From: Loxodes magnus
Taxonomy: Eukaryota > Ciliophora > Karyorelictea > Loxodida > Loxodidae
Direction of reading: 5' to 3'
Assembly (NCBI GenBank): GCA_946699065.1
Contig: CAMPDV010001094.1
Span: 62,001-126,000, forward strand
DNA length: 64,000 nucleotides
Shown here: positions 13,505 to 56,824 of the stretch, one piece after another
Layout of the letters: the number at the start of each line of letters is the position of its first letter
How positions within the stretch are numbered: the stretch's first letter is position 1
Translations under genes and position numbers: made by a program
The notes under the pieces: generated by a model
The model's input: only the letters and a program-made list of their open reading frames with translations
Database searches by the model: none
Told to the model about the DNA's origin: nothing

Positions 13505-15156
13505 TCATACTTTTTTTTGATGTAATAAATCATAGTTGATTATATAAGAAAATAATTTTTTTAAGCAAATAGATAATTTTTTATATTTTTAAGATTAAAA
13601 AAGTTTATTATTATTTTATCTACTTTCTCTTCTAATTATTTCTGCATGCAAATTATTAGTTTCAACTTTCATAATTTATATATAATCTTCTTAACTATAT
13701 GAATACATAATGGCAAAAACATAATTTTCTTTTTATTTTACTTAAAATAGACAATTACCTTCTATAGGAAGAAGTGCTTCTTACCAATTAAAAGCATTTT
13801 TTTATAAATTATTTTTGATTGCTTATTATTTTTATGATTACCTCCTAATATTATTAAAGGATCTAAACATATAGCTGAAACACTAATAGGACTTGGTAGC
13901 TAAAATTCAATCTATGTTCATTCATCTTTTTAAATATTGTATCTAAGTATATCTTTTAACAATTAATTTTCTGAATTTTTTCCTCCAAAAGAATATATAT
14001 TTTCTTCTTACTTATCCGTTGCAAGTGTTTAACTATGAATTCCATAGGGCATTTAAGAACTTCATTTTCAATTATTTTCACTTTCTAATCTTAAACATTC
14101 TACTGTATTTAATGTATTTTTATCTGCCCCTGCAGCAAAAATCATTCCTTAAGCTGCAGCTAAACCTTAGCAAAATCTTGCTACATTCATATCATTTAAT
14201 TACTTAAAATTTCCTTCGAAATCCACTTATCAGGTAGTTTTTATTACTTAATTATTTGTTTTTCCACCTACTAGATATAGATTATTTTTATAATCTATAC
14301 TTCTTTAATACGTAGGAACTTTTTATTGTATCTTAATTAATTTATATTCTTCCCTTATTATATCAAATAAATGTAAGTTGCAGGTATCTCTACTAAATTA
14401 ATGAAGATAATTTTAAAAGTCTTGATTTTAATAATTTTATTCTTAACTTTAATTTAAAATTCTTATATTTTATTTGCTCTCTTCTTATTACTGTTAACTT
14501 TTCTCTATTACTTCTTATGTTTTTTCTTTTCAATTCTTATAAACAAACTCAAAAGCTTAACCCAATTACTTAAGCAATTATTCTTTATAATCTTCTAATT
14601 TTTATATTCGCTTCTTTCCTTATTTTTATACTTTCTGATAATCCTCTTGAGTTAGTACTTCATTTTTTTCTCTTTAATCATATATATTAATTTGGCCTTA
14701 CTATTTTATAATATATTCAAGTTTCAAGACTTTTTAATTTATGCTTCTAATGCTTTATTATATTTCATTTTTTACTTGATTAGTTTTGTTAAAGATATGG
14801 CTATTTAATAGAACTAAAGTCTATTTACAAATAATAGAATGCTACTAGTTTATCTTTAATAGTTATAATCTCAAGTTTATTCTTTAAGATTTTAACGTTT
14901 CTAAGGTTTATTTTATTTTTTATTATAACTAAGTTGTTAGTTTTTAGTCATTTAAAAGTTGTTCGTTGTTTTTTAAATCATTAGGGTTTTATAAAGAAAC
15001 TAATTAGCAAATAGGACATTTATTCTGTTTATTTTTTCTGAAATCTGCTGCCAAACAGATAATGCAAACTGAATGACTGCAAGGTAAAATTTTAGGAATA
15101 CCAAGTTATGAATCAAATTTTTCACAACAAGATGTACAAATATCTTGATTCTACAT
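13505..15156 (-). CDS. RING finger - coiled coil - kelch protein (TRIM-like E3 ubiquitin ligase), divergent member
   Basis: The gene begins at the ATG complementary to 15154-15156. Residues 7-50 form a C3HC4 RING: C7-x2-C10-x15-C26-x-H28-x2-C31-x2-C34-x12-C47-x2-C50 (CTSCCEKF...LPCSHSVC...CPIC). A Gln/Lys-rich coiled coil follows, then four kelch blades with the motifs LYLVGG, FAAGA, YSFGG and IILGG, each with the expected downstream Trp, most of them encoded by TGA (TTW, NNW-KW, EWTQ). The frame holds for 451 codons. A 1-base deletion in the T7 run at 13797-13803 then shifts it, after which the reading resumes (FNWQEALLP..., YVFAIMYSYSQEDYIQIM) to the TGA at 13505-13507, about 550 residues in all. 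The role inferred from the family is substrate-recruiting ubiquitin ligation. It is homologous throughout to the genes in the long repeats. The homopolymer shift may be an assembly error or a true lesion. Confidence 0.85.
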
Positions 15157-15778: not shown

Positions 15779-16516
15779 ATGGCTTCTAAGAAATAACAGA
15801 ACTTTGAACAAAATATTTAAACAGGAAAATTCTCTAAAAAATAAAAAAGCGAAATAATTACAATGAGTGAAAGTGAGAAATATGATTGATATGACGAACA
15901 TTAACCACTTGGAAATCCAGAATTAAAAAAACTTCCGACATAAACTCAAATAGAAATATTATCTAAGTCATTAAAAGAGTTTATGTTTAAAAATAGATAC
16001 CTCACTGATAAAGTAGAAAAATTAGAAAAACTAATAACGTCTTTACTTGAGAAACAATATTAATAATCATAAGAAATAGAAAACAAACTGGAACAAAGAA
16101 TTCTTTAAATTTAATAATAAATTCAGGTTACGCCATTTTCGATTTAACAGAATTAATCAGATCCTATGGAAATAGAAAATGAAGCCTCAAATTAAAATAA
16201 ACAGTAAACGTTTATTTAAAATAAGTAGTAAATTTAAATTAAATAAGTGCTACAGGAATAATAGTTTAAAAGAAGAATAAAATGCTACGTGTGTAATAAA
16301 TAACACCAATGAAAATACTGCTACTAACTAAGCGAAATTTAAAGAAAGAATAAATAAGATAATTTTAGAAAACTATTTAGGATATATCCAACATAAAGCG
16401 GAAAAATTTATAGAAAAAAATTCTTTAATTCAAATCTTAATCCTTGGATAAATAATTAGGAACGCTAAGTGCAAGGTCAAAACTATTCCGAATATTAAAG
16501 GATGGTGCGCTAATGA
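15779..16516 (+). CDS. Gag-like zinc-knuckle protein 1 (ORF1-like)
   Basis: The ATG at 15779 opens 245 codons ending at the TGA at 16514-16516 in one frame under the local code. The order is a basic/Gln-rich start (MASKKQQNFEQN), an acidic patch, a coiled coil around residues 75-120 (LTDKVEKLEKLITSLLEKQ), a conserved DPMEIE motif, then a zinc knuckle CYVCNKQHQWKYC (C-x2-C-x3-H-x4-C, one residue short of the usual spacing, with Trp from TGA). A GKIYR motif follows. The same order (coiled coil, D-P-M-x-I-E, knuckle, GKI) recurs in the next genes, so this is a gene family and not chance. Gag or retroposon ORF1 function (RNA binding and packaging) is inferred from the architecture. No reverse transcriptase is seen nearby. 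Confidence 0.65.
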
Positions 16517-16517
16517 A

Positions 16518-16624
16518 GTGCTACACCGCCTAACTAAGCCTAGTAGGAATTCAAGACAAACTAATGGAGACAAGCTGATAGAATAGGTCAGATGGCTGAC
16601 TACTAAGGCTTTAACAAAGCTTTT
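16518..16624 (-). repeat. ~107-bp segment repeated inverted at 53775-53880
   Basis: The reverse complement matches 53775-53880 almost base for base (aagccttagtagtcagccat, cttgaattcctactaggctt, ggcggtgtagcac). Its outer edge carries the GTAGCAC core of the hairpin-end motif. It lies just upstream of gag-like gene 2 and, at the other site, exactly at the left edge of the third long repeat. Confidence 0.75.
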
Positions 16625-16655
16625 TAACTTTTTTTTTTTATATATAATACAAAAA

Positions 16656-17485
16656 ATGGCTGGCTTCAAGAAAGGTTTTTTACCACCTCCTCAGAGTAGG
16701 AGAGAAAACCTGAAGCATCATCTCTAACCACGTTTTAGCTTTAACTAACCCACTCTTCTTCCTAAGATTTATTAGATCCTCAGAAAATAATTTTTGAAAA
16801 CCTCTAAAAAATGCAAAATGATAATAACGAACTTTCCATACAACTTAATTCACTGAAAGAATAAATCTAATGCCTGATCAATAACGTGAACACGCTAAGA
16901 TAAGAAAATAGTAACTACAAGACTGAACTCAGCAATAATCCTTAGTTATTAGAATTTAACTAGAGAATCAAACAGACAGAAGAAAAATTAAACTAATTCG
17001 CTGAGATTACTGAGAGTCTGTTTCTAAAAAATCTCTCTCACAATGATCCTATGGATATAGAGCCAGCAATTCAACCAGCAAAAAGAAATAGAATGAAGGA
17101 AAAACCTAAATGCTGGTTCTGCAGAAAACCTGGTCATTTTGTAAGACAATGCTGGAAATATTAAAATAAACAAAATGAAGAGAATAAAAGAATTTAAAAA
17201 AAACTGAATAAATTAAGCAGATTGTATGTTACTCAAGAGGGTAAAATTTATAGACTTAAGATAACAAACGTAAAAAATTAGTAAATCGGTCCTGAAGAAA
17301 ATATATGATTTAGACCCTAGTAAATAATTGGAAAAGAACTAGATTTTAACCAAATCCCTATAATAAAACCTGGAGAAAAAAGTAATAGTCGATATGTAAT
17401 AATGAAGCATAAGACAGAAGAAGACTATGAAGAATATATCCAGAATACCTTTTTTTTACATTTATAAACATTATATCAGTGATGA
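16656..17485 (+). CDS. Gag-like zinc-knuckle protein 2, with a -1 frame change
   Basis: The main frame reads a coiled coil (NSLKEQIQCLINNVNTLRQ), HNDPMDIEPA, a classical zinc knuckle CWFCRKPGHFVRQC (C-x2-C-x4-H-x4-C), LYVTQEGKIYRLK and an acidic tail, ending at tandem TGA TGA (17480-17485). The only good start, ATG at 16656 (MAGFKKGFLPPPQ), is in the +1-offset frame, so a -1 shift is needed. A T_TTT_TTA heptamer in the start frame at codons 7-9 is a known type of slippery site and would join the two. A plain frameshift mutation is equally possible. A hairpin and (TTA)n tail follow the stop. The product would be an RNA-binding ORF1 or Gag of a retroposon. Confidence 0.7.
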
Positions 17486-17533
17486 TCCTAATGAAAGGTA
17501 GTATCACTTTAATTAATTATTATTATTATTATT
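17478..17533 (+). other. 3' hairpin plus (TTA)n tail of gag-like element 2
   Basis: AGTGAT (17478-17483) can pair with ATCACT (17503-17508). About 10 bases later a (TTA/ATT)n microsatellite runs from 17518 to 17533. LINE-type retroposons commonly end in a recognised 3' structure followed by a short tandem tail. Gag-like gene 5 has the same arrangement (38234-38334). Confidence 0.5.
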
Positions 17534-18099
17534 GAATTACAAAGAATGAAATAATAATTTCTTATTAAATATAAATATTTAAGCAGTATTATTATGAAAA
17601 CTTTAACCTATAACTTTAGACTAAGTACCCAGATTTTGGTTTATTGCAATGTAAAGTAATGAGTTAGGAAAGAAAGAAAATATTATATAAAATAAAAATG
17701 TTATATAATATTTATTTATTTAGCAACTTAAAAAGTTTGAAATTATAATAATTATAATTTAAGGGAATTATCTTTTAAAAGGTCTACATAGTTTTTATTA
17801 GTTAAATTAATGTCTCTAACATCTTGTATACGATTCCAATTCAATAAATTAAAATTACTTTTAATTAACTCTTCATAATCTTCTTCCATAAGATCTAAAA
17901 TTTACTAAATTACTAAAGTTGAGTCTATTTATCTTAAAATATCCTCTTGAAATATCTGCAAAGTTAATTTATTAATTATTTCTTTGAATCTTCATCCATC
18001 TTTAATTTTCCATTGCTTATGTATCTTCATTAGATTTCTATTATAACTTATATATACTTTGAAAATTGGAAAATTTATTGCAAAAAGTCACTTCTAAAA

Positions 18100-18470: not shown

Positions 18471-19550
18471 ACTGAATTGATTGTAAAAAATATTTCTGAG
18501 ATCATTTTTCTTTTTCTTATTAAGGTAATTAATCAATTAAATAAGATCTTTATTCTTATTCAAAGGTATTTTATTGAGAGAGATCTGGTATTTCTTAGGG
18601 ACCATTTTAAATTAAATATATATTAATGATAATAATATAAGATTCTAAATAAAAAGTCTATAAGATTAAAAATAATAATATACTAAAAGTATATTTGAAA
18701 TAAAGTATAAGTTATTTAATTAAGTATGATTCAAATATTTATTATATAAAACATGTAAATGAAAGTACTAATTTAATTTATAGATTTCCCTTTTCATTTT
18801 GGATTTAGAAATATATAATATCAATAATATAAAATTTGAATTAAGTATCTAAATTATATTTCTAAAATATTAAAAAGTTATGTTTATATTATATTTATTA
18901 AAAGCTAGAAAATAATAAAATTTATAATAGATAAACAAATTTAAAATTGTAGTATTTATTTATTTTTAATATTTAAATAACTTTTGAAATATCTTAAATA
19001 TGCATATATAAGTTTACATTTTAAATTAATCTATTAGTAAAATTAATTTTATTAATAATTTATAATTTAAACATGTATAATTTTATTTATTTTAATAAAT
19101 AGTCAATCAATATTTACTTAATACTTTAATTTAAAACATTTCTTTTTATTTATTTCATTAGCTTTATTTAAGTTTTTTCAAATTATATATTCAATTAAAA
19201 TAGTTAATATATCTTTAAAATTAATTTTACTTACAGGCATTTTTTATGTATACAATTTAACTAAAAATTACATCTATTAATAGTTTAAAATTAAACTATA
19301 TCATTTTTATGTTATTTTTAGATATTTAAAGTTAATGTTATCTATTTATGTCTTTTATACTCAATATATTATTTGAAGGCTTTAAATTAACTTGCAAAAA
19401 ACTAGCACTACTCTAGTAAATTTTTAGGCAATGTTGTTAAGTTATTTTACATATAGAAGATATCTTAACTCTATAAATAGATTAGTAATATTTGTAAATA
19501 AAGCATTAAATATTTATTAAAAAGTTTATAAATTAATACGATTATTGAGC

Positions 19551-19850
19551 GAGTAGCACCTCAGGCGGGTGCAGCTCTTTGATAAAGATTTTTAAAGTTA
19601 ATAAAATTCCTTGCTGAAGTCTTCCACAGTGCTAACATTCCCTTGTGAGTTTATTATAGGGCCGCTATCGGAATGCTTCTCTAAGACCTTAGTATCTGGT
19701 ATCTTTCATCATTAATACTACTTGATGCCTCTTCGATCTTGTCTTCTCTTCTCTTGGCTCCTAACAAGATTTTTGATTGGTTCTTCACCTATGGATACTT
19801 CCTAGTACCAGAGTTCAAGTAAGTTTGAATTGGATCATTGGTGCGTATTG
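19551..19850 (+). repeat. Hairpin end and island B of long repeat copy 1
   Basis: GAGCGAGTAGCACC-TCAGGC-GGGTGCAGCTC folds as a stem (GCACC/GGTGC and GAGC/GCTC). It is followed by the ~260-bp G+C-rich subterminal island (CTGAAGTCTTCCACAGTG ... GTACCAGAGTTCAAGT). In copy 3 the homology starts exactly at this hairpin, which identifies it as the element's left terminus. Confidence 0.7.
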
Positions 19851-21153
19851 ATTTATACATAATAGTTTGAAAATATAAAACTAATAAGTAGTAAGGATTA
19901 TTATTTGGCTTAATTATAATATATAATTTGATTAATATTTTAGAATTATATTTTTATAAAGCGAAAGATTTAATAAAGAAATATTAAAATTAATTATTTT
20001 TGTATCATTAAATTAAATGATTGTAAAAAATTAAAAATGTTACATTTTAACATAAATTTATTAAATTTTATAAATAATTTACAAAATGGATTGAGTGGTA
20101 AATTTGATTTGAACTGAATAATATCTTAATTTTGGATTATTTATTGTTATCCTTAACTTATTTAGTTTGATATTAGATTTTTAGGATTTTATTGATTAGC
20201 ATAGTTTTAATTTAACATCTTTAATTTATTTTCTGTATCTTATTCTATTTAAATAACAGTTTAAATTTGATAAAAGTTTTTACAATGAAGATACATTTCC
20301 TTTAATTAGATTAAAATATACAATTAATTTATTTAAATTATTAATCTTTCCTATTTTATTATTGTAGATCAACATTCATAGATTATTCTCATAGTTATAA
20401 AGAATATTTACCAAAAAGAGAATATTAAATAAAAAAATATGTAAATAGTTTTAATATATAAAAACTAAATTTTGCTAATTAAATATCTCAAATTATTATT
20501 TAAATTAAATAATATTATCAAAATTAAATCACTATTTACATTACAAAATAACTAGTTCAACTAACACTATTATACACTACATTATCAACATATCAATAAC
20601 ATATCAAATATCCAAATTACTAATTCCAAAAATACTATAAACATTTAATATACTATCTATATATACTTAAACTTATTTTACATCTATTTACTTTATTTTT
20701 AAATATTCTAATATTAATTATCAAATTTAATATATTATATTATAAACATAATTAGTTAATATATTACAATTCTTAAATTATTTACATAATTCATTTACTT
20801 TTATATATTTTAATAATTAAATAAGTTATTTAAGGATTTTAATTTTGTCTTAATATTAGATTATTTATTTGTAATAATTTTTTAATTTATCTTTTTATTA
20901 AGTTATCTAAAGACTCTTTATAATTTCTCTTTTATAATTTCTATTTAATATTAGTTATATATAAAATAGATAAAAAGAGAATATAAGGTAATAGATGATA
21001 ATATTTAAAGTAAGTAATAAATTATAAATAGATTAGTTACATTAGTATTAGAGGTAATATTAATAAGCTAGTTTATCATAGTAATAGTAATAATCTAATC
21101 TAAACTGTTATATTTACACTTTTAGCTTTTACATTTATTAACTTTATAATAAA

Positions 21154-22521
21154 ATGTAAGTCATCTACCTATGCTAATACTGCTCTTATCCTTTTAACCT
21201 AACTAACGCTATTCCTACTGTCTTACCTTGTTCTCATACTTTCTGTAGCTTATGCTTAAAGACTTAGTACTATTTATAGAATCAAATCAGCTGCTGCATT
21301 TGTTATAAGGTATTTCACTTTAGATTTGAAGATTTACCTATAAATGATGAATGGGTAGAGATATTACAATAATAATAGGAGTAGATTAATATTAGAAAGT
21401 AATGCTAATAGAAATTAAATTAAATGAAGAAGTAAATAGATTAGAAGCAAAATAAAATTACTTAGATATAGCAAAGAGTTAGCTACTAATATTTGAATTT
21501 AATACCTTCATAACATATTACATTACTAAAATAATAGAAACTAAAGAATGACTAGAAATATAATGTCCATCTGTAAGCCTTTGTCTCTATCACCTAAAAA
21601 TATTCCTCAAATACAATAAAATAAATATATTAGCAGATAAAACTTAACATGATTGATTAGAGAAATATATAGCAAGAATAAAAATTAATAATTTAAGCTG
21701 AGTAGAATATAAAGGAAAGTAAATATATTCATTTCTTTTAATGGGATACTTATATTCTTCGATTATTTAATATAGAAACAGAATAAATTTAAAAAGTTTA
21801 AATAAATACTTAGGTTCCTAGTTTTAGTAGAAGTATTGAATATAGAAATAAATTATATTTAGTTGGAGGATAAATAAATAAATAAGGAGTAAAAGATACT
21901 TGATAATTTGACTTTTAAGGAAATAGTAGAAAACTATCTAGTCTTAACTAAGGAAGATTTGGGTTTGGATTAGCAGCAGCTTAAGATTATATATATGTAG
22001 TAGGAGGAAATTTTGATTTAAGTAAAACTTTAAGAACAGTAGAAAAATTAAAGATAGGAAATTAAAATAAATGATAATATTGTTCTTAGTTTCCTTTTGG
22101 AATAGCATGTTAGACATTGGTAGCAGATAAGAATGAATAAAATATTTATTCGTTTGGAGGATCAAACTAAAATGCATAAATTTTAAATGACATATGAAAA
22201 TATAATATATAGAACGATATATGAAATAAATATCATTTAAATCTTCCTGAAGCTGTTTCATTTCCTTTAGTATTACTTGAACCTCTAATTATAGTTGGAG
22301 GAGTAAAAAATCCATATAAAAATTAATATTTAAGAAAGATATATAAAAGAAACAATCAATAATGATAATAAATAGAATTTAAGCATAATTCTATTAATTT
22401 ATCAGCATTTAAAACAAGAGATAGATTTGCTTATTCTTTTATTCCTGATAAACCTAACCTTTTATTGTTGAGAGTCGATATAGTGAACTTGAGTTACAAG
22501 ACTATTAGAATAGTGTGATGA
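21154..22521 (+). CDS. RING finger - coiled coil - kelch protein, intact, in long repeat copy 1
   Basis: One frame of 454 codons runs from the ATG at 21154 to tandem TGA TGA (22516-22521). The C3HC4 RING is at residues 7-49: C7-x2-C10-x15-C26-x-H28-x2-C31-x2-C34-x11-C46-x2-C49 (YPFNLTNAIP, LPCSHTFCSLC). Residues 60-200 are Gln/Lys-rich coiled coil. Kelch blades run from about residue 228 to 430 (LYLVGG, YVVGG, YSFGG, IIVGG), with TGA-encoded Trp at the expected places (KDTW, NKW, NDIWKY, NDIWNK). It aligns almost without gaps to the minus-strand gene at 13505-15156. By family it would be a ubiquitin ligase whose kelch part binds the target. The stop choice is supported by the TGA TGA pair conserved in all three repeats. 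Relative to the other repeats, the first ~105 codons are nearly identical and the rest strongly diverged. Confidence 0.9.
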
Positions 22522-25490
22522 ATGAAGTTAAATAAAATATAATAAATTTAAAGTATTTTTAATAATAAATATTATATTATAGTATTTTATAAGTTTGAAT
22601 GATTTAGGTATAATAAGAAGTAATGATTATGTAGTAATATTTTTAGAATGTTATATATTGTAAGTTGATTTAATGTTAGTCTGATAGTTAGACAGTGATG
22701 GTGTTGATTGTAAGGGTTGATATAAATATATTTGATATAATTAAATATTGTGTAATTAGTAGAGACATATTAATATTAAGTAATGATGCACATAATGATG
22801 TGCATAATGAATTTGAAAGTATGTTTTAATTTAGTATAAAATAAAAATATTTGAGTTTTAAAGTTGATGCTATCTACTTATGATTTAGTTATTATATTAT
22901 AGTTTAAAAGAATTATTTAAATAATAAAAATTTATAAAAAAGTGATCTAATAAACAGTTAGCTAAATTATTATCTTAAAAAGTTTATTATCTAAATAATA
23001 CTAAAAATAAGCAAAAAGAATCTAATAATACATATAGATATAAATATTTATAGCTATTATATTACTTTAATAATTAAAGGTAAAAGTAAGTTTTAGTGAT
23101 AAAATAATTCTTTATTGGATTAACAAAGATTAAAGTTAGAAAATATTTTATCTAAAACATATTAAATGTTGCTTTTGTCTAAATAGCTATTTAAATTCAT
23201 TTTACTTATATCTTTTTTACTTAAGAAAAAGTAAAGACGAGTATTTTAAAAAGAGCATGAACAATGAAGTTATATAAATGCTCACAAAAAAGAAAATTTA
23301 TAAGTGAAAATATTATGATTACTACTATATTGAGTGCTCTAAAGTTATATAATATATTATTAAGAAGCTTCTTTTTTAATAGATAGATAAACTTCTTGAT
23401 AGTTTAATGAATTTCTTGGTGGATATTACGATAATTTAATTATAATTTAAATATCATTTATATGAAGTGTTATTAGCAATAATATTTCCTAAGCAGTATA
23501 TAAAATTGTTTATAATTTCCCTAAAATAAAAGTTATTACGTGCACATAAAGATTCTATATTGATTACAATAAAGATTAAAATTAGCTCTGTTTTATAGTT
23601 AGAAAGAAATTAGTTGATAAGAAATTTGAATATGTTGATAAACATAAATGGTAACATTAAGCTATCTATTTATACATTAATATAAAGTAATTTTGTTGAT
23701 GCTAATTGTATTATCTGAATATGATTAGATTTTTTGATAATAATAGGTTTATTTGAATATAAAAGGAATTAAAAAATAAACTAATTTAAATTAGTTAAAA
23801 TATTTAATTTCTTAATTTATATCTAATTAAATAAATTAAACCATTATATACTCTTAAGTTTAAAACTTATATAATTATAAATTTTGGTTACAGATAAGTT
23901 TTATTTAAATTATATAATATTATTTCTATTTATAGAGTATAAATTGAAGTAAGTAAAAAGGAACAATATTATTGATATTTAAATATATTTTAAATTAGAA
24001 TAAATGATTAAACTTTTAATTAAATAAATATAAATATCAGATATTTACAACACTATATCAAATTAATTATTTTAAGTAAATATACTATTTTAACTTATAT
24101 CTACTATTTTTTAATCAATCCAAATAATCATATAATAATAATCAAATTATCAAATTATAATATACTCAAATTATATCCAAATTACATATAATTCATCATT
24201 ATTCAAATATATTATTACACTTAAATCAAACCATTTATTTTATACATTTTTTCCATATCAAATAGTCATCAATTCTAAAAAACATACTAATTTCAAATAT
24301 TATATCAACTCATTTTATTAATACCTCCAAATTATAATCATAGATATAATTATAACCAAATTAATGCTTCATTATTTTAATATTAGAACCTACTTTTAAA
24401 TATCATTCTTATACATATATAAATATAGTTATTATTTTTATTTAAATATGTATATTGCCATTTAATTTTAATAACAATACTAATTTATTTTTTAGTTTAA
24501 ATATTTTTAATTTATATCATCTATTTTATTTATGCTTTTACTAATAGTTTTTTAATTTAATTTTAGTTTATATTTCTTTAAATTAAATTACACTTACAGT
24601 CATTTTATATATCTTAATTAAAATTTATATTTTATAGCAATTTAAAATTAAATAGTATCATTTTTTTATTATTATTTTAGATATTTAAAGTTAATATTAT
24701 CTAATTTTTTAAAGGAAAAAAGCATAGTTTTTGAAGTGTTTTGAAGTGAGAGTACGAAATTTTAATATCAGAGTCATTAAATTGGTAAGTTTAGAGTGTT
24801 GAATTCGATGAAATTTCATTATCTTGTTAAAACTAATACTTTTAGTAAATTAGATTGATATCCTGGTGTGATTCGGTTGAAAAAACGATTTAAGGAAAAA
24901 ATGTTTTAGTTTTTTAGATTGGCTTGCGGAAAATTCTAATGAGAATTATTTTTAAGTGAAAGAAGAATCATATTCTTGCTGTTGTCTAAATTAAAATTTT
25001 CTTAGGAAGTACGTTAAGGCAGATTTAGTGTTTCATTAATAAAGTTTGCCATTTTATTTTATTAATTAGTAAAGAATTTTTAAATTAAAGAAAGCTTTAA
25101 GCCATAGGTAATTAAATGTAAATAGCTTGATAAAATTAAGCGAAAGTAATCATGACCAATTCTTTTCAATTTTCAGGATACCTCTATATTCTACTCTTAT
25201 GTAATAAAGATAAAATCTGACCATTACAATTTTAAGTTATTTATCTGGAAAAGCAATTTATAGATAATTTTATGATATCTTTGAACTTTCGTATTTATAG
25301 ATTAGTTAATTTTTTTATAATCTAAATAAGGATAAATTAAATAATAATATGAATTAGCTTTATAATTTTAATTATTTTTAAAGATATTAGCAAACAATTT
25401 CAATCAGATAGAAGCTTTATATTAAAATAAAACTTCTTTTTAATTATTATATCATAATTTTCTATCAAATAACTATTTATAAATAAAAGT
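22522..25490. other. AT-rich non-coding body of long repeat copy 1
   Basis: No convincing gene is seen, yet the sequence is almost base-identical to copies 2 and 3, far more so than the adjoining kelch coding part. It contains a small G+C-richer patch near 24720-25200 (gaagtgttttgaagtgagag onward) conserved in all copies. Confidence 0.5.
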
Positions 25491-25498
25491 TAGTCTAT

Positions 25499-26290
25499 GA
25501 AGAAATTAATAAAAGCTACTAGTAATAAAACTTAAATTACTAGATCTAAGGAAACTAAATTTAGATATTCTTAAGATTAGATAAAATAAAAATTTTGTTT
25601 ATTAAAATTTAGCTCCTTAAAGAGTATAATAATCTATTGAATGATTTTTAGAAAGTTAAATTTTAAATAGATAGAAATATTAGGAATTAAAAATTAATAA
25701 TAGTAATTATATAATAATAAATTAACCTCTTTTATATACTTCATCGATTAGATAAAAATAATAAAAACCTAAAAGTTTAGAATAACAATTTCTATTTATA
25801 GAAAACATAATATTAAAAGACTCATTTAATAAATTATTTTTCATTTATTTGTTTAATTTAGATTTAATATTAGGGAATAAATTCCTTCTTTTTTCTTTGA
25901 TAGCAATAAGAATTAAATTATGCAACAATAACTATTAATAATTATTAGAAATAAAGTTAATTTAAATTTTTAATTTCATAATCTTTTAAATCAAAAAATA
26001 GGAAAAAATGCCAATCTATAGAAGAACACAATTTAAATATTTAGAAAGATAGATAGGAAATATTTTTTAGACATAAAATAAAAAAAGAATAAAAACCATA
26101 AATGAATCATCAGATAATCCATTTAGTAAAATTTAAACTGATAAAGATATTAAAATTTCTAATTTGAAAAAAAAGTTTTACATTTTCAATAGCTTGGCGT
26201 AGAATCTTATTTAAAATATTCTAAGATATTTATGAATTAAATAGCTAATAGCCTTTGCTAAAGTGTGAAATAAATATAAGAAAAATTAAT
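25499..26290 (+). CDS. Coding-like stretch in long repeat (uncertain)
   Basis: From the ATG at 25499 a basic frame of about 260 codons (MKKLIKATSNKTQITRSKET...) is open under the local code with only a few TGA codons. It is conserved in copy 3, while copy 2 loses the second half by divergence at about 45258. Openness is weak evidence in DNA where TAA/TAG are sense, and no motif is visible. Confidence 0.2.
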
Positions 26291-26403
26291 CTCTTTATAT
26301 AAAAATCATATAAATTTATTTCTTAATTGCAATTCATAGTAATTTTACTATGTTTCTTTATCCTTGAAAACTAGTAATTTCAAATTTTAATTTTTTTGCA
26401 TTA

Positions 26404-26717
26404 ATTAATTAATTTTAAACTAAAAGAGTTTTTGGACTGCAACTTCTTGAATTTAACGACCCCAACACTCCCTTCATGGGATAACGGGGATATCCTGTTG
26501 CTTTCGAAAAGCAGCTGCCAGGGAGCTCCATCGCTATGGGCAGCCAGGCTTCAAGCCCCTACCAGGAGTGGATAATCAAGAGGAAGATGTTCCCTTGCAA
26601 AAGTTGACTTTGACCAGGGACTTTCTCAGCGACAGGAAAGGAACTTGTTCCTAGCCATAAAACCAGAAAGTATGATTCAGAAGGTCAATCTCAGCTCCCA
26701 CCATCTTTTTAATTATC
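26404..26717 (+). mobile_element. SINE-like short retroposon, copy b
   Basis: A 314-bp G+C-rich element matching 588-897 and 37112-37423 (inverted). It is flanked by an exact 14-bp target duplication atttttttgcatta (26390-26403 and 26718-26731). It differs from copy a by blocks such as CTTTCGAAAAGCAGCTGCCA. The same insertion with the same duplication is present in long repeat copy 3 (60695-61008). Confidence 0.85.
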
Positions 26718-27589
26718 ATTTTTTTGCATTATATTCTGTTTTATATATATGATTAAGGCATAACCTTTAGATATTAATGTTATTGTGAATCTAAATTTCT
26801 TTTGACATTATAAATATTTTTATTCTTTATTATTTCAATAAATAAAGTGTTTTAAAGTGAAATTCTTTCATTTTTTACTCTAAGCAATTGAATAAAATTT
26901 GTTTATTTATCTATAATTTATCTTTAAGTTTTCTCAAGCATTAAATATCCCCAAATTTTTATAAAATTTCCAATATTTAGACAAATCAAAATATAGATCT
27001 CAGATTATTCCTTAATTTTCATTGATTAATTTTAAAATTTTTATTCTATCATATGAATAAAATGAATTTTAAGAAAAAAAATTTAATTTTTTCTTTTTAA
27101 AGTTTTGAAACTTCAGACCATAATTATAAAATTTAATCTTAAATGATCAAAATACGTTTTCTAATTAAAGTCCTAAATTTAATATAGTTATCTATTTATT
27201 TTTTATAACAATTTAGAGTTTCTCTTTTATTTTCTTTATGCTATGTCTTTTTTTACCTTATAAAAAACTAAAAATCAAATAATAAACTTGATCAAGCAAT
27301 TTAATAAAAATAATTATTATTTTCTAAAGCTAAGAAAAATTATTTTAGCATTTGATTAACGAAATTAGTTAGTAGTTACTTTTTCTCTTGATAAAGTTAT
27401 ATAATAGAGAAAAAGATTTTAAATATGCTTGTATTTACCATGAATATAACTTAGATAAAATTAAATTATATTTCCATTACAGTAAGTTTTAGCCTTTCTA
27501 CTTTAGAAATCTAAAAAACTAAGATTAATGCTAGCTAAATTTATATAATATATCTATAGTTAATATTTGTTTTAGAACAATAATTTGGA

Positions 27590-29640
27590 CTCTTAAAATT
27601 AAAAAAGATTATGAGCCTTTCTAGTTCTCTAGCGAGCAAAGATTAAATATTCTTAGTTATCTTAGAAAATAAACTAACTCGTCCAGAAAAATAAAAGATG
27701 ATATTTAAATTTTCTGATAGAAAGGATACTAACTAGTTTTTAGTTTCTTCAAAGAAGAAAATAATAAATTCTATTTCATTGATGAGTACAAAACTTATTC
27801 TATTATCTTAAATCTCATTTTAAAATTATCTAATTTTTCTAGTAGTAAGAATCACAAAGAAATTGAATGCTAAAACAAAAATAAAAATAAAGCATAAAAT
27901 ATTTAAAATAGTAACTATTAGATAAAATAACTTATTAGCAAAATAAAGCTGATTGAATACAAGTTTCTTAAAAATAAATAAATCTCTTAGGAAATCTCTA
28001 AATCCAATTTTATAAATTTATGAATTTTGAAATATATAAAAAATTTTATTTTATTAAATCTACTAATGCAATTATAGATTCTTTATTTATTTAAATTTTT
28101 TAACCTAATAAATAAATTTTACGGATAGCTTATAAAAAAATTGAATATAAGAATATTAGATGTCATAAAAGAATAGAATTATTAAATATCTTTAGTTTTT
28201 CTTAAATTTTATTAAATCTTTGGATTATGATTTCTAAAAATTAGCTCAAAATCTATAAAAATAAATTTAGCTGTGCAAGAAAATAAAAATTTGCTCTATA
28301 TTTACTTACTTAAATTGCTAATTAATACTCAAACAAGGTTAAATAGATTTAATATAAGAAACATTTATAAAAAAGCCTTAGGATTTATAATTTGAAAGTA
28401 ATGCTATAAATTTTCACGATTTATCCTAACTCTTAATTTCCTAAAATACAATTTTTATCTAAATATTTAGAAAAAATTTATAAAGATAGAATCAGCTCTA
28501 AAATAATAGTGCTAAATTTATAACTAATAAAAACTAAATTCTTCCAATTATAATAAACATATCATTAACTTTATAAATAATTATTTCCTAAAAAAGGATA
28601 GAATCTTCTACTAAGTAAAGCATATGGAAAATTAAAAAAAAATTATCTAGTAAAAACAAAGAATAGCTAAATAAATATTTATTATGCAATTAATAATAAA
28701 TTAATTAATAAACTAAAACTTAATTATCATAGCTTTCTTTATAGAAAGAAGCAAATTAGTAAAAAAGATAATGAATAGTTAGTTTAATTATATATTCTAA
28801 AGAAAATATAAAACTTAATAACTCTCCGTAATTAGCGAATTTATCTCAGAGTATTTTAAAAATAAGCATTGTTCTCTTGATAAATTACTTAGGATCCTTT
28901 ATCTTAAACAAAAATTAAATTTTAGTTTATTATATCTAAACTTCTTCAAATATTTTTGATTTCAAATTAATTAAATAATTTAAAGTAGTGACATATCTAC
29001 CATTAGCATATTGTAGGCTATTTAGAGGAATAAATTAATAATTCTAAGATAAATGAGGTAATTAAATTTTAAATTAATTCTCAAAATTAAAGTTAGAAAT
29101 ATCTATTTAAGGGAATTATTCTAAAATTATTATAAATATGTCAGGTCGAGGAGAACTAGCTGCTATAAATAAATTTCAATTCATTTTACTTGGACTGCTA
29201 TCTGACTTATTGAGAGAATATCAAGACTTCTGCTTTAAATGGGTTGACTTAGGGAGAAGAGTTTTATAGTCAATTTTTGTGCTTCAATAAAATCTTTCTA
29301 AGTTCATATAGCATTAATGAATTACCTGGATTTCAAACAGCTAGAAATAAAATTTTAGGTAAAGTTTTTTCTTCAAAACGTAAAGCGCTAAGAAAACACA
29401 AAAACTGGATGCTCGCACTATAATTAAATAAGCGGAACTTGATAGAAAATTTACGAAAGCTAAATATCATATTATAAAAGTTAAAATCTTGATTTTATTT
29501 TTAAGATAAATTATATTCAAAGTGAGAAGGAGAGATAAAGCGTAAAAATTAAATTCATATCCCAAAAATGCTACAATATTTCAGTGATTTCATTACTGCA
29601 AAAAGAATATACGAATTATAGATTTAAAATCTATAAAATT
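27590..29640 (+). CDS. Long coding-like frame in the right part of the long repeat
   Basis: A single frame reads protein-like sequence for roughly 680 codons under the local code: KKDYEPFQFSSEQRLNILSY near 27600, FSFFKEENNKFYFIDEYKTY near 27750, then LNGLTQGEEFYSQFLCFNKI and LPGFQTARNKILGKVFSSKR near 29250-29390, ending in KNQIHIPKMLQYF near 29580. Some indels relative to copy 3 preserve frame (a -1/+4 pair near 27875), supporting coding. Others (-8, -1) break it, so at least one copy is decayed. I recognise no family. The start and the exact stop are unknown. A replication or transposition protein of the repeat is a guess that the sequence does not support directly. Confidence 0.4.
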
Positions 29641-29735
29641 TATAATAAATTTTTAACTTAGGAAAATAAATAAAACTAACAATTTTTAATAAATTGACCA
29701 TTTGAGAAATAAGAGAGTGATATGCATCATGTATA

Positions 29736-32300: not shown

Positions 32301-32371
32301 GGCTGCTACGGGAATTGAACCCGTGACCTCTCGCACCCAAAGCGAGAATCATACCACTAGACCAAGCAGCC
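32301..32371 (-). tRNA. tRNA-Pro (TGG anticodon)
   Basis: The reverse complement folds as a full cloverleaf. The acceptor is GGCTGCT/AGCAGCC, the anticodon arm CTCGC-TTTGGGT-GCGAG with anticodon TGG, and the T arm GTCACGGGTTCAATTCCCGT. There is no intron. A T5 Pol III terminator lies directly behind the 3' end (32295-32299 on the plus strand as A5). The gene and its 5' flank (caagagtaatatagag) are repeated inverted at 47309-47379. Confidence 0.95.
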
Positions 32372-33824: not shown

Positions 33825-33895
33825 TGCACAATCCGGGAATCGAACCCGGGTCTCACGAATGGGAATCTTGAATTCTACCACTGAAATAATTGTGC
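33825..33895 (-). tRNA. tRNA-Gly (CCC anticodon)
   Basis: The reverse complement has acceptor GCACAAT/ATTGTGC with discriminator A, a D arm TTTCAGTGGTAGAAT, the anticodon arm CAAGA-TTCCCAT-TCGTG (one A-G mismatch in the stem, anticodon CCC), and T arm CCCGGGTTCGATTCCCGG. T5 follows the 3' end. It is a typical eukaryotic tRNA-Gly. The mismatch in the anticodon stem is slightly unusual. Confidence 0.85.
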
Positions 33896-37111: not shown

Positions 37112-37423
37112 AATAATTGAAAAGATGGTGGGAGCTGAGAATGACCTTCGTGACTAAAATTTCTGATTTATGGTTAGATACAAGTTCCTTTCCTGTCGCT
37201 GAGAAAGTCCCTGGTCAGAGTCATTTTCTGAAGAGAACGCTGTCTTTGAGATTATCCGCTCTTGGTAGGGGCTTGAAGCCTGGCTGCTCATAGCGATGGA
37301 GCTCCCTAGCAGCTGTGCCTGGAGCACAACAGGATATCCCCGTTTTTCCATAAAAAGAGAGCATCGGGTCGTCAATCGAAAAGAAGTTTCCGGTCCAAAA
37401 ACTCTTTTAGTTGAAATTAATTA
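37112..37423 (-). mobile_element. SINE-like short retroposon, copy c (inverted)
   Basis: A 312-bp element in the opposite orientation to the other copies. It is bounded by an exact 18-bp duplication attaattagagttttaaa at 37094-37111 and 37424-37441. This is the clearest target-site duplication in the window and fixes the element's ends. The inner sequence matches copy a more closely than copies b and d (TGCTCCAGGCACAGCTGCTA in the plus sense of copy a). The 73-codon standard-code frame inside it is not supported as a gene. Confidence 0.9.
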
Positions 37424-38344: not shown

Positions 38345-41300
38345 ATTAAGTATCTAAATTATTTTTCTAAAATATTAAAAAATTATGTTTATATTATATT
38401 TATTAAAAGCTAGAAAATAATAAAATTTATAATAAATAAACAAATTTAAAATTGTAGTATTTATTTATTTTTAATATTTAAATAACTTTTGAAATATCTT
38501 AAATATACATATATAAGTTTACATTTTAAATTAATCTATTAGTAAAATTAATTTTATTAATAATTTATAATTTAAACATGTATAATTTTATTTATTTTAA
38601 TAAATAGATTTCATTAGCTTTATTTAAGCTTTTCAAATTATATATTCAATTAAAATAGTTGATATATCTTTCAAATTAATTCTACTTACAGGCATTTTTT
38701 ATGTATATAATTTAACTAAAAATTACATCTATTAATAATTAAAAATTAAACTATATCATTTTTATGTTATTTTTAGATATTTAAAGTTAATGTTACCTAT
38801 TTATGTCTTTTATACTCAATATATTATTTGAAGGTTTTAAATTAGCTTGCAAAAAACTAGCACTACTCTAGTAAATTTTTAGGTAATGTTGTTAAGTTAT
38901 TTTGCATATAGAAGATATCTTAACTTTATAAAAGATTAATAATATTTATAAATAAAGCATTAAATATTTATTAAAAAGTTTATAAATTAATACGATTATT
39001 GAGCGCGTAGCACCTCAGGCGGGTGCAGCTCTTTGATAAAGATTTCTAAAGTTAATAAAATTCCTTGCTGAAGTCTTCCACAGTGCTAGTATTCCCTTGT
39101 GAGTTTATTATAGGGCCGCTATCGGAATGCTTCTCTAAGACCTTAGTATCTGGTATCTTTCATCATTAATACTACTTGATGCCTCTTCGATCTTGTCTTC
39201 TCTTCTCTTGGCTCCTGACAAGATTTTTGATTGGTTCTTCGTCTATGGATACTTGCTGGTACCAGAGTTCAAGTTAGTTTGAGTTGGAGGATTGGTGCGT
39301 ATTGATTTATACATAATAGTTTGAAAATATAAAACTAATAAGTAGTAAGGATTATTATTTGGCTTAATTATAATATATAATTTGATTAATATTTTAGAAT
39401 TATATTTTGATAAAGCGAAAGATTTAATAAAGAAATATTAAAATTAATTATTTTTGTATCATTAAATTAAATGATTGTAAAAAATTAAAAATGTTACATT
39501 TTAACATAAATTTATTAAATTTTATAAATAATTTACAAAATGGATTGAGTGGTAAATTTGATTTGAACTGAATAATATCTTAATTTTGGATTATTTATTG
39601 TTATCCTTAACTTATTTAGTTTGATATTAGATTTTTAGGATTTTATTGATTAGCATAGTTTTAATTTAACATCTTTAATTTATTTTCTGTATCTTATTCT
39701 ATTTAAATAACAGTTTAAATTTGATAAAAGTTTTTACAATGAAGATACATTTCCTTTAATTAGATTAAAATATACAATTAATTTATTTAAATTATTAATC
39801 TTTCCTATTTTATTATTGTAGATCAACATTCATAGATTATTCTCATAGTTATAAAGAATATTTACCAAAAAGAGAATATTAAATAAAAAAATATGTAAAT
39901 AGTTTTAATATATAAAAACTAAATTTTGCTAATTAAATATCTCAAATTATTATTTAAATTAAATAATATTATCAAAATTAAATCACTATTTACATTACAA
40001 AATAACTAGTTCAACTAACACTATTATACACTAGATTATCAACATATCAATAACATATCAAATATCCAAATTACTAATTCCAAAAATACTATAAACATTT
40101 AATATACTATCTATATATACTTAAACTTATTTTACATCTATTTACTTTATTTTTAAATATTCTAATATTAATTATCAAATTTAATATATTATATTATAAA
40201 CATAATTAGTTAATATATTACAATTCTTAAATTATTGATATAATTCATTTACTTTTATATATTTTAATAATTAAATAAGTTATTTAAGGATTTTAATTTT
40301 GTCTTAATATTAGATTATTTATTTGTAATAATTTTTTAATTTATCTTTTTATTAAGTTATCTAAAGACTCTTTATAATTTCTCTTTTATAATTTCTATTT
40401 AATATTAGTTATATATAAAATAGATAAAAAGAGAATATAAGGTAATAGATGATAATATTTAAAGTAAGTAATAAATTATAAATAGATTAGTTACATTAGT
40501 ATTAGAGGTAATATTAATAAGCTAGTTTATCATAGTAATAGTAATAATCTAATCTAAACTGTTATATTTACACTTTTAGCTTTTACATTTATTAACTTTA
40601 TAATAAAATGTAAGTCATCTACCTATGCTAATACTGCTCTTATCCTTTTAACCTAACTAACGCTATTCCTACTGTCTTACCTTGTTCTCATACTTTCTGT
40701 AGCTTATGCTTAAAGACTTAGTACTATTTATAGAATCAAATCAGCTGCTGCATTTGTTATAAGGTATTTCACTTTAGATTTGAAGATTTACCTATAAATG
40801 ATGAATGGGTAGAGATATTACAATAATAATAGGAGTAGATTAATATTAGAAAGTAATGCTAATAGAAATTAAATTAAATGAAGAAGTAAATAGATTAGAA
40901 GCAAAATAAAATTACTTAGATATAGCAAAGATTAGCTACTAATTTTAAATTTAATACCTTCATAACATATTAAATTACTTATCGTAATAGGAACTAAAGA
41001 ATAATTAGCAATATAATGTCCATCTATAATCCTTAATTTCTGTCATTAAATAATACTCCTCAAATAAAATCAAATATATAAATTACCAACTAAAATCTAA
41101 AATGATTGATTAAGGAAGTATTAAGCAAGATATAAAATAAATAATTTAAGCTAAGTAGAATATAAAGGAAAGTAAATATATTCATTGATTTATATGAGGA
41201 TCATCTTAATTCTTATATTATTTAATATAGAAACAGAATAAATTAAAAAAGTTTATTTAAATACTTAAGTTCCTAGTTTTAGTAGAAGTATTGAATATAG

Positions 41301-44300
41301 AAATAAATTATATTTAGTTGGAGGATAAATAAATAAATAAGGAGTAAAAGATACTTGATAATTTGACTTTTAAGGAAATAGTAAAAAACTATCTAGTCTT
41401 AACTAAGGAAGATGTTAATTTGGAATAGCAGCAGCTTAAGATTATATTTATGTAGTAGGAGGAACTTTTGACTATAGTAAATTTTTAAGAACAATAGAAA
41501 AATTAAAGATAGGAAGTTAGAGTAAATGATAATACTGTTCATAGTTTCCTTTAGGAATAGCATATTAGACATTAGTAGTAGAAAAAAATGAATAAAATAT
41601 TTATTCGTTTGGAGGAATGAACTAAAACGGATAAATTTTAAATGACATTTGAAAATATAATATATAGAACGATATATGAAATAAATATCATTTAAATCTT
41701 CCTGAAACTGTTTATGATTCTTTAGTATTACTTGATCCTCTAATTATAGTTGGAGGAGTAATAAATCCATATAAAAAAGAATACTTAAGAAAGATATATA
41801 AAAGAAGCAATCAATAATGATAATAAATAGAATTTGAGCATAACTCTTATAATTTATCAGCATTTAAAACAAGAGATAGATTTGCTTATACTTTTATTCC
41901 TGATAACTCTAATCTTTTATTATTGAGAGTGAATATAGTAAACTTGGGCTACAAGACCATAAGAATAAAGTGATGAATGAAGTTAAATAAAATATAATAA
42001 ATTTAAAGTATTTTTTAATAATAAATATTATATTATAGTATTTTATAAGTTTGAATGATTTAGGTATAATAAGAAGTAATGATTATGTAGTAATATTTTT
42101 AGAATGTTATATATTGTAAGTTGATTTAATGTTAGTCTGATAGTTAGACAGTGATGGTGTTGATTGTAAGGGTTGATATAAATATATTTGATATAATTAA
42201 ATATTGTGTAATTAGTAGAGACATATTAATATTAAGTAATGATGCACATAATGATGTGCATAATGAATTTGAAAGTATGTTTTAATTTAGTATAAAATAA
42301 AAATATTTGAGTTTTAAAGTTGATGCTATCTACTTATGATTTAGTTATTATATTATAGTTTAAAAGAATTATTTAAATAATAAAAATTTATAAAAAAGTG
42401 ATCTAATAAACAGTTAGCTAAATTATTATCTTAAAAAGTTTATTATCTAAATAATACTAAAAATAAGCAAAAAGAATCTAATAATACATATAGATATAAA
42501 TATTTATAGCTATTATATTACTTTAATAATTAAAGGTAAAAGTAAGTTTTAGTGATAAAATAATTCTTTATTGGATTAACAAAGATTAAAGTTAGAAAAT
42601 ATTTTATCTAAAACATATTAAATGTTGCTTTTGTCTAAATAGCTATTTAAATTCATTTTACTTATATCTTTTTTACTTAAGAAAAAGTAAAGACGAGTAT
42701 TTTAAAAAGAGCATGAACAATGAAGTTATATAAATGCTCACAAAAAAGAAAATTTATAAGTGAAAATATTATGATTACTACTATATTGAGTGCTCTAAAG
42801 TTATATAATATATTATTAAGAAGCTTCTTTTTTAATAGATAGATAAACTTCTTGATAGTTTAATGAATTTCTTGGTGGATATTACGATAATTTAATTATA
42901 ATTTAAATATCATTGATATGAAGTGTTATTAGCAATAATATTTCCTAAGCAGTATATAAAATTGTTTATAATTTCCCTAAAATAAAAGTTATTACGTGCA
43001 CATAAAGATTCTATATTGATTACAATAAAGATTAAAATTAGCTCTGTTTTATAGTTAGAAAGAAATTAGTTGATAAGAAATTTGAATATGTTGATAAACA
43101 TAAATGGTAACATTAAGCTATCTATTTATACATTAATATAAAGTAATTTTGTTGATGCTAATTGTATTATCTGAATATGATTAGATTTTTTGATAATAAT
43201 AGGTTTATTTGAATATAAAAGGAATTAAAAAATAAACTAATTTAAATTAGTTAAAATATTTAATTTCTTAATTTATATCTAATTAAATAAATTAAACCAT
43301 TATATACTCTTAAGTTTAAAACTTATATAATTATAAATTTTGGTTACAGATAAGTTTTATTTAAATTATATAATATTATTTCTATTTATAGAGTATAAAT
43401 TGAAGTAAGTAAAAAGGAACAATATTATTGATATTTAAATATATTTTAAATTAGAATAAATGATTAAACTTTTAATTAAATAAATATAAATATCAGATAT
43501 TTACAACACTATATCAAATTAATTATTTTAAGTAAATATACTATTTTAACTTATATCTACTATTTTTTAATCAATCCAAATAATCATATAATAATAATCA
43601 AATTATCAAATTATAATATACTCAAATTATATCCAAATTACATATAATTCATCATTATTCAAATATATTATTACACTTAAATCAAACCATTTATTTTATA
43701 CATTTTTTCCATATCAAATAGTCATCAATTCTAAAAAACATACTAATTTCAAATATTATATCAACTCATTTTATTAATACCTCCAAATTATAATCATAGA
43801 TATAATTATAACCAAATTAATGCTTCATTATTTTAATATTAGAACCTACTTTTAAATATCATTCTTATACATATATAAATATAGTTATTATTTTTATTTA
43901 AATATGTATATTGCCATTTAATTTTAATAACAATACTAATTTATTTTTTAGTTTAAATATTTTTAATTTATATCATCTATTTTATTTATGCTTTTACTAA
44001 TAGTTTTTTAATTTAATTTTAGTTTATATTTCTTTAAATTAAATTACACTTACAGTCATTTTATATATCTTAATTAAAATTTATATTTTATAGCAATTTA
44101 AAATTAAATAGTATCATTTTTTTATTATTATTTTAGATATTTAAAGTTAATATTATCTAATTTTTTAAAGGAAAAAAGCATAGTTTTTGAAGTGTTTTGA
44201 AGTGAGAGTACGAAATTTTAATATCAGAGTCATTAAATTGGTAAGTTTAGAGTGTTGAATTCGATGAAATTTCATTATCTTGTTAAAACTAATACTTTTA

Positions 44301-55459: not shown

Positions 55460-56824
55460 ATGTAAGTCATCTACCTATGCTAATACTGCTCTTATCCTTT
55501 TAACCTAACTAACGCTATTCCTACTGTCTTACCTTGTTCTCATACTTTCTGTAGCTTATGCTTAAAGACTTAGTACTATTTATAGAATCAAATCAGCTGC
55601 TGCATTTGTTATAAGGTATTTCACTTTAGATTTTAAGATTTACCTATAAATGATGAATGGGTAGAGATATTATAATAATAATAGGAGTAGATTAATATTA
55701 GAAAGTAATGCTAATAGAAATTAAATTAAATGAAGAAGTAAATAGATTAGAAGTAAAATAAAATTACTTAGATTCAATAAATAGTTAGCTACTAGTTTAT
55801 AAATTGCATATCTTCATAACATATTACAATGCTATCGTAATAGGAACTAAAGAATAACAATCGATATAATATTCAACTATAATCCTTAATTTCTATCACC
55901 TAAAAATGTTCCTCAAATACAATACAATAAATATATTAATAGATAAAATCTAAAATGACTTATTAGGGAAGTATTAAGCCAGTTATAAAATAAATAAGTT
56001 TAGCTGAGTAGAGAATAAAGGAAAGTAAATATATTCATTGATTTTAATGGGGTACTTAAATTCTTCGATTATTTAATATAGAAACAGAATAAATTTAAAA
56101 AGTTTAATTAAATACTAAAGTACCTAGTATTAGTAGAAGTATTGAATATAGAAATAAATTATATTTAGTTGGAGGAGAAATAAATAAATAAGGATTAAAA
56201 GATACTTGATAATTTGACTTTTAAGGAAATAGTAGAAAACTATCTAGTCTTAACTAAGGAAGATATTGATTTGGATTAGCAGCAGCTTAAGATTATATAT
56301 ATGTAGTAGGAGGAACTTTTGATTAAAGTAAACCTTTAAGAACAGTGGAAAAATAAAAGATAGGAAGTTAAAGTACATGATAATATTGTTCTTAGTTTCC
56401 TTTTGGAATAGTAAATTAGACATTAGCAGCAGATAAAGCAGAATAAAATATTTATTCGTTTGGAGGAGCAAACTAAAACGAATTAATTTTAAATGACATA
56501 TGAAAATATAATATATAGAGCGATATATGAAATAAATGTAATTTAAATCTTCCTGAAGCTGTTTGTGATCCTTTAGTATTATTTGAACCTCTAATTATAG
56601 TTGGAGGAGTAAAAAATCATTATAAAGAATTTTAAAGAAAGATATATAAAAGAAGCAATCAATAATGATAATAAATAGAATTTAAACATAACTCTTACAA
56701 TTTATCAGCATTTAAAACAAGAGATAGATTTGCTTATAATTTTATAGTTGATTTACCTAATCTTTTATTGTTGAGAGTTGACGTAGTAAACTTGGATTAC
56801 AAGACCATAAGAATAGAGTGATGA
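55460..56824 (+). CDS. RING finger - coiled coil - kelch protein, intact, in long repeat copy 3
   Basis: 453 codons run in one frame from the ATG at 55460 to TGA TGA (56819-56824). The RING (C7, C10, C26, H28, C31, C34, C46, C49) is identical to copy 1. The coiled coil and kelch parts differ at many positions (for example VPSISRS for VPSFSRS, GGEINKQG for GGQINKQG, GGTFDQSKP for GGNFDLSKT, GGANQNELI for GGSNQNAQI), yet the frame is preserved despite several indels. Trp is encoded by TGA in KDTW, STW, NDIWKY and SDIWNK. A preserved frame despite high divergence suggests selection on the protein. The function is inferred as for copy 1, with a different target likely. Confidence 0.9.

Follow-up and report, generated by a model that had tools for sequence, protein, structure and literature searches.

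A large RING-coiled-coil-kelch gene family in the ciliate Loxodes magnus with a uniform RING end and a variable predicted propeller face

Worms, plants and fish are already known to have repertoires of ubiquitin-ligase receptors with fast-evolving binding domains, and fungi to have variable propellers. Passages of PMC2657112 describe finTRIM proteins in which the RING regions are nearly identical and the binding domain is under selection. The nematode and plant F-box and MATH-BTB families, as cited in parts of PMC4334554, are large and fast-evolving, with positive selection in the substrate-binding and not in the cullin-binding domains. Excerpts of PMC1805685 report that in every WD40 repeat of Podospora HET-D and HET-E the d-a loop and the b-c turn carry positively selected pairs of positions, all lying on one face, and that family members exchange repeats. 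Here we analyze a family of genes from the ciliate Loxodes magnus that encode a RING domain, a coiled coil and kelch repeats, three copies of which lie in a stretch of 64,000 nucleotides (contig C1094, positions 62001-126000; hereafter the window, in whose coordinates positions are given and within which the copies are numbered); the genome searched for further copies comprised 705,730,643 bases in 7843 contigs. The genes probably form an arrayed family of ligases in which the constant end is homogenised, the propeller face is diversified by selection and short-tract conversion, and the whole serves as an intracellular recognition repertoire. Its closest analogues would be finTRIM/TRIM5, the nematode MATH-BTB and F-box families and the HET-D/E propellers.

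The family is like finTRIM and TRIM5alpha in its near-identical RING and selected binding domain. However, those proteins are organized as RING-B-box-coiled-coil-B30.2, whereas copy 1 has no Pfam match to a B-box (E up to 0.001) and a predicted propeller takes the place of B30.2; the Loxodes family also belongs to a ciliate, has more copies and shows RING divergence near zero at the DNA level. With HET-D/E it shares two variable pairs per blade, in the same loops and on one face, and exchange between members. HNWD proteins are NLRs with WD40 repeats of variable number and count 10 family members, whereas the Loxodes protein couples a RING to kelch blades, exchange takes place among far more copies, and no match to NACHT/NB-ARC was obtained in copy 1 or in six frames of 18801-29802. 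F-box and MATH-BTB proteins act as adapters of cullins, the RING being on another subunit, while here RING and receptor occupy one chain, and Keap1/KLHL proteins are single conserved receptors, in contrast to this hypervariable family, whose copy 1 has no Pfam match to BTB/BACK (E up to 0.001). No account of such a family was found in full-text literature searches, judged by titles and the beginnings of abstracts and with subscription journals mostly outside their coverage.

Constant and variable parts of the gene

The three copies of the window and the parts of copy 1 are as follows.

21154..22521 (+): RING-coiled-coil-kelch gene, copy 1; 454 codons under table 27, TGA TGA stop
40608..41976 (+): copy 2, frameshifted after codon ~107 (four indels, net +1; from alignment)
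55460..56824 (+): copy 3, open frame, one codon shorter (from alignment)
21074..21453 (+): constant 5' part, comprising 80 bp upstream, the RING and the start of the helix (codons 1-100; from 38-copy diversity)
21454..22515 (+): variable part, codons 101-454, a helical linker and then a predicted six-bladed kelch propeller from codon ~190
22536..24271 (no strand): 3' flank, near-identical in the three copies (from the window alignment)

Copy 1 matches the Pfam models Kelch_4 (1e-17) and Kelch_1 (8e-17), and its match to zf-RING_UBOX (5e-5, 23.6 bits) falls slightly below the cut-off of 25.2; the C3HC4 zinc ligands are all present (C7-x2-C10-x15-C26-x-H28-x2-C31-x2-C34-x12-C47-x2-C50). Structure modeling places the start of a helix at codon 65 and predicts a closed propeller fold for the region bearing the kelch motifs.

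An earlier note on this locus had proposed that the kelch part diverges from about codon 105 to the TGA TGA stop within an otherwise near-identical repeat, and a divergence plot in 100-bp windows bears this out, with about 11% in the kelch part against 0-2% in most other windows. The flanks 19980-20679 and 22572-24271 differ at 0-1 positions per 100 in all three pairs, with one additional 8-bp indel in the copy 3 flank, and codons 1-60 differ at 0-2 per 100. From 21479 to ~22530, by comparison, the pairs differ at 4-24 per 100 (mean about 11%), with a sharp 5' border near codon 105 and a 3' border within ~20 bp of the stop. The flanks are uniform in most windows, although a few reach 7-10%: every pair does so at 19780-19880, and copy 3 does so at 20780-20880 and over part of 24570-24670. 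Homology between copies 1 and 3 starts only at position 19553 of copy 1. At the other end, the limit of the third repeat had been put too early at 60100, since homology to copy 1 continues to the end of the window (29723 versus 64000). Copies 1 and 3 both keep an open frame, as had been stated. The "numerous indels" of the same account describe copy 2, with its four frameshifting indels (net +1), and not copy 3, which differs from copy 1 by a single in-frame codon deletion and 3 additional bases past the stop. Between copies 1 and 3, the synonymous (dS) and nonsynonymous (dN) distances are 0.164 and 0.121 over codons 105-455, with changes spread evenly over codon positions (40/45/39), and 0.052 and 0.004 over codons 0-105.

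The same architecture is found in a 69-copy alignment, composed of 66 fetched loci and the three window copies and omitting L001, L025, L028 and L045, which are duplicate places of other rows. The 69 copies contain 61 distinct variable domains, and the first ~180 bp of the 3' flank are common to 40 of them (a single-linkage class). Flank identity is not universal, because the flanks of the wider set form several unrelated classes. Among 38 copies of this class (L002 and L050 removed), diversity is 0.0% from -80 to +80, stays below 3% up to nucleotide (nt) 280 and reaches 5.4% at nt 280-300; across nt 300-1380 it ranges over 1.5-30% per 20-bp bin, 10% being reached or exceeded in 28 of the 54 bins, and past nt 1380 it drops to 0-3.4%. 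The zero at nt 19-62 is ascertained for copies found by pattern, exact matches having been listed first, whereas no such ascertainment affects -80 to +18; a 22-row alignment likewise has 0.0% diversity at nt 0-150. In 134 pairs whose 3' flanks (nt 1380-1562) are at most 1% apart, the variable parts are a median of 11.1% apart (range 0-15.2%).

Most of these genes retain their frame. Frameshifting indels are absent from 57 of the 69 copies, and a further six (L003, L014, L015, L016, L023 and L026) carry only a shared 1-nt deletion at nt 1355 that alters the last residues. After this deletion, reading continues for a few codons to a different TGA, which gives an alternative C-terminus; in the stop region, TGATGAATGA, two frames contain TGA. 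L057 has the nt-1355 deletion together with 12 bp.

Propeller face, selection and mosaicism

Within the predicted propeller, the hypervariable codons fall in the loops of one face.

21820..21825 (+): DA-loop hypervariable pair, codons 223/224
21958..21963 (+): DA-loop hypervariable pair, codons 269/270
22105..22110 (+): DA-loop hypervariable pair, codons 318/319
22258..22263 (+): DA-loop hypervariable pair, codons 369/370
22393..22398 (+): DA-loop hypervariable pair, codons 414/415
21739..21762 (+): BC region of the first blade, codons 196-203
21871..21891 (+): BC loop after the first GG, codons 240-246
22018..22029 (+): BC loop, codons 289-292
22162..22176 (+): BC loop, codons 337-341
22303..22332 (+): BC loop, codons 384-393
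22444..22455 (+): BC turn of the last blade and adjoining strand, codons 431-434

Keap1 presumably contacts Nrf2 at positions equivalent to these. Selection was evaluated in 55 copies, a set that excludes the five internally frameshifted copies (L020, L022, L032, L054 and copy 2), L057 (12-bp insertion and C-terminal deletion) and eight copies whose variable domain matches a kept row (L002, L050, L061, L062 and L067-L070); in the six kept copies with the deletion at nt 1355, the final codons were counted in the register of copy 1. The dN/dS ratio (omega) over residues 105-453, which had been recommended as a check, averages about 0.65-0.74 across the domain, or 0.60 when corrected with the noncoding mutation spectrum (136 substitutions between copies 1 and 3). 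This average hides the signal, which lies in the loops of one propeller face: an equal-rates count gives omega of 1.34 for the BC/DA loops versus 0.28 for the AB/CD loops.

Since an equal-rates count overstates omega in an AT-rich genome, we used a blade-to-blade test, designed so that sites would not be picked for their own diversity: offsets seen in blade A defined the 15 corresponding codons in blades B, C and D. With the local synonymous rate, omega at these codons is 1.35 (1.14-1.62); with the propeller-wide rate it is 1.99 (1.79-2.21), and none of 20000 random 15-codon sets was as high as the latter value; the DA pair gives 2.96 (local) and 2.25 (propeller-wide). The offsets were fixed after the all-blade diversity had been seen, so that the test is blind by construction and not in fact, and the omega intervals are too narrow because the bootstraps count recombining copies as independent. 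We read particular residues of the face as being under diversifying selection. The suggestion of diversifying selection on the binding domain beside a homogenised remainder, made from three copies, is thus supported in 69.

The variable parts are also mosaic. Among 61 distinct copies and 221 common sites, linkage disequilibrium (LD; r2) starts at 0.43 between neighbors, has dropped to 0.09 by 16-32 bp and is 0.05 for sites more than 500 bp apart (0.018 when shuffled), and 87% of site pairs more than 512 bp apart show all four combinations. Copies 6-11% apart have identical stretches of up to 321 bp, some of them across contigs, as between L047 (C170) and L056 (C197). Four-gamete counts could include recurrent mutation, which could hardly account for the long identical tracts. 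In the window, the variants shared among the three copies cluster, forming 89 runs where 118 would be expected. Of the cassette conversion proposed earlier, only short-tract exchange among full genes is borne out, and silent cassettes devoid of a RING would be hypothetical. Physical proximity goes with similarity: 6 of 13 neighboring pairs within 10 kb are less than 1% apart in the variable part, compared with 10% of 84 pairs at 10-50 kb and almost none across contigs.

Family size, surroundings and genetic code

A genome-wide search for more copies returned the RING 43-mer at 223 places (at most 2 mismatches; none for the reversed control), many of them in arrays, and about 100 of these were listed with positions. 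A kelch-core 33-mer occurs at 283 places (at most 3 mismatches) and a 3'-flank 42-mer at 118. Parts of PMC11441545 describe the macronuclear assembly of L. magnus as 706 Mbp and the genome as diploid, and haplotypes may therefore inflate the family counts; the variable domain of L002, for example, is the same as that of copy 1. Eight contigs were compared, and among the places listed they hold 97 exact RING places. Again among places listed, an exact RING stands at the expected spacing from 42 of 43 3'-flank places and from 50 of 56 exact kelch places, the 56 including one from a ninth contig. Six of the 56 have no exact RING 43-mer nearby, but one of these, on C105, was read and has a RING-like 5' part, ~90% identical with apparent frame changes, and the same holds for a kelch place on C442, outside the eight-contig comparison.

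One orientation dominates on each contig among the copies listed (27 of 28 on C197, 433 kb; 26 of 26 on C208, 460 kb), although both occur on C404, C472, C951 and C1338. Very regular tandem units of ~5.58 and 6.0 kb are present at G000:C197:269494-291804 and 204887-216902 and at C208:163016-192921, the C208 units being represented in sequence by one unit only (L003). The C197 tandem sets L066-L070 and L060-L062 have identical variable domains, so recent tandem amplification also occurs. The copies of C105 (L030-L041) form a subfamily whose RING is ~6% and whose variable part is ~14.6% from other copies, with 1.0% and 8.9%, respectively, among its own members.

The genes read correctly in the karyorelict nuclear code (table 27), in which TGA specifies Trp inside genes and stop at the end. 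Copy 1 has five internal TGA codons, all at kelch Trp positions; across the 55 copies TGA is used 354 times and TGG 115 times, with TGA at codons 250, 307, 348, 357 and 404 in 48-55 of the 55. Reading under the standard code yields no open reading frame of 120 amino acids, and table 6 breaks the gene at its Trp codons, leaving table 27 as the right one. TAA and TAG were taken as Gln, as table 27 has it, Gln and Glu not being distinguished here. A protein database search gave just 5 weak kelch hits, and an exact 27-mer from the RING had zero matches in the genome_contigs collection.

The window also holds a more distant relative.

13798..15156 (-): fourth, old paralogue with RING, longer coiled coil and kelch repeats; 3' end not resolved

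This gene is only 34% identical to copy 1 overall (46% over codons 181-399), and by its sequence it is an older branch of the RING-coiled-coil-kelch superfamily in the same locus. In addition, an interspersed repeat of ~320 bp, with units 78-89% alike and in both orientations, is found at 576-901, 26400-26724, 37109-37441 and 60691-61015, two of the four units lying within the long repeats. Four transfer RNA (tRNA) genes (Pro-TGG twice, Pro-CGG and Gly-CCC) stand between the repeats at 32299-32371, 33824-33895, 46132-46203 and 47309-47380, and the Pro tRNA genes have ~120 bp in common. At 16001-18000 (+), a single frame gives zinc-knuckle and PHD-like matches below threshold (E 0.007), which may be a retroelement remnant or have arisen by chance.

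Proposed mechanism and alternative explanations

In the mechanism we favor, recent duplication and gene conversion (concerted evolution) would homogenise the RING together with the 80 bp upstream of the gene and the 3' flank, selection for differing faces would hold propeller variants apart over the long term and raise nearby synonymous diversity, and short conversion tracts would reshuffle the variants among copies. Given LD of tens of bases, diversity would fall right past the last selected codons, which would explain the border at the stop without dedicated machinery. Judging from the domains, the coiled coil would be expected to dimerise, the hypervariable face of each copy may bind a different protein or epitope, and the shared RING, as a putative E3 ubiquitin ligase, may ubiquitinate the target so gripped; the targets could be parasite, virus, retroelement or self/non-self proteins.

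Several observations weigh against this interpretation. The copy sample is non-random, consisting of the 20 best hits to copy 1, the first 30 exact pattern matches listed and 20 successive listed copies of one contig. Five of the 69 copies (L020, L022, L032, L054 and copy 2) are frameshifted internally, two further copies read in part, L071 and L072, likewise show apparent frame changes toward the 5' end, and the tandem sets L060-L062 and L066-L070 fail to differ in their variable domains. On the structural side, three of five models have low mean values in the predicted local distance difference test (49.6-54.3; best 68.0). Periodicity, judged by autocorrelation, is weak (P 0.027). Moreover, correction for the mutation spectrum lowers the whole-loop omega of the top face to 0.95 (BC 1.14, DA 0.80), about neutral, while the other face stays at 0.25, and the BC offsets alone give 0.97 with the local synonymous rate (1.81 propeller-wide). 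The excess over neutrality consequently rests on particular sites, and diversity above neutral at the predicted binding face is carried by the contrast between faces and by the blade-to-blade codons.

Could drift in the kelch part simply have blocked conversion there, with the flanks kept homogenised and no diversifying selection? Such a neutral escape would fit the divergence of synonymous sites, the domain-average omega below 1 and the end of diversity within tens of bp, the same scale as LD. We nevertheless regard it as unlikely: drift would not choose one face (1.34 versus 0.28), sites tested across blades exceed neutrality, the short LD and long shared tracts indicate that conversion inside the domain is not blocked, and the borders coincide with the end of the coding region and that of the RING part. 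Targeted hypermutation, or programmed switching from silent cassettes, would also generate constant ends around a variable middle and mosaic variants, as the parallels of VSG, VlsE and diversity-generating elements illustrate, and the six kelch-core places lacking an exact RING 43-mer nearby could be taken as cassettes. Yet the identical variable domains of the recent tandem duplicates L066-L070 and L060-L062 weigh against programmed rewriting, the one of these six places that was read (C105) and a further place on C442 both have a RING-like 5' part, no substitution class dominates, and the retained frame of most copies together with the conserved core fits selection on full genes; rewriting of this kind is thus quite improbable.

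We attach very little credence to a mobile element that carries the gene, with flanks reflecting recent transposition and variation reflecting decay. The outer contexts do differ between copies, and section 11 of PMC11441545 portrays the genome as retroelement-rich. However, most sampled copies are open and their variation is face-specific, unit lengths of ~5.6 and 6.0 kb fit tandem duplication, flank break points vary between copies with no fixed ends, and a six-frame Pfam search of 18801-29802 (E up to 0.05) gives only kelch, RING and related propeller families. It is similarly hard to credit an assembly artefact in which collapse or polishing unified the flanks and mixed the kelch parts, even though haplotypes of the diploid genome may inflate the count and, in the assembly account of PMC11441545, Falcon primary contigs with a 96% collapse threshold were followed by Racon. 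The input described in that account was circular consensus (CCS) long reads, the three copies occupy distinct places of one contig, the few flank variants are common to subsets of copies, and a chimera would ignore propeller faces, the codon frame and the stop codon.

A final alternative retains the molecular system and assigns it to self/non-self recognition, as in mating type or allorecognition, instead of defence; it is a sub-case that overlaps the recognition repertoire favored here. Plant S-locus F-box proteins offer a parallel of this kind. In PMC1805685, self/non-self recognition is the role of the HET-D/E propellers, whose blades each have these two variable loop pairs, but hundreds of copies per genome would suit a repertoire more than a one-allele identity tag, and we consider such a use rather doubtful.

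In the family described here both features, a probable ligase-receptor repertoire and a variable propeller, come together in one protein family of a single-celled ciliate; with haplotypes counted, its RING occurs at more than 200 places. Its putative enzymatic end is so uniform that variation of the binding face is visible base by base, which makes the family a clean natural experiment in which gene conversion and selection are opposed within one gene. More tentatively, and as a possibility that we would not yet call the likely one, hundreds of one-chain ubiquitin ligases, with propeller faces diversified and shuffled in the manner of receptor binding sites, may constitute an anticipatory intracellular repertoire. 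This would act in innate defence, directed at viruses, at invading bacteria or at the retroelements abundant in the genome, and would do so in a ciliate in which extensive elimination of germline DNA is reported to be absent. The family is a concrete case in which to look for intracellular immunity or self-recognition among protists.
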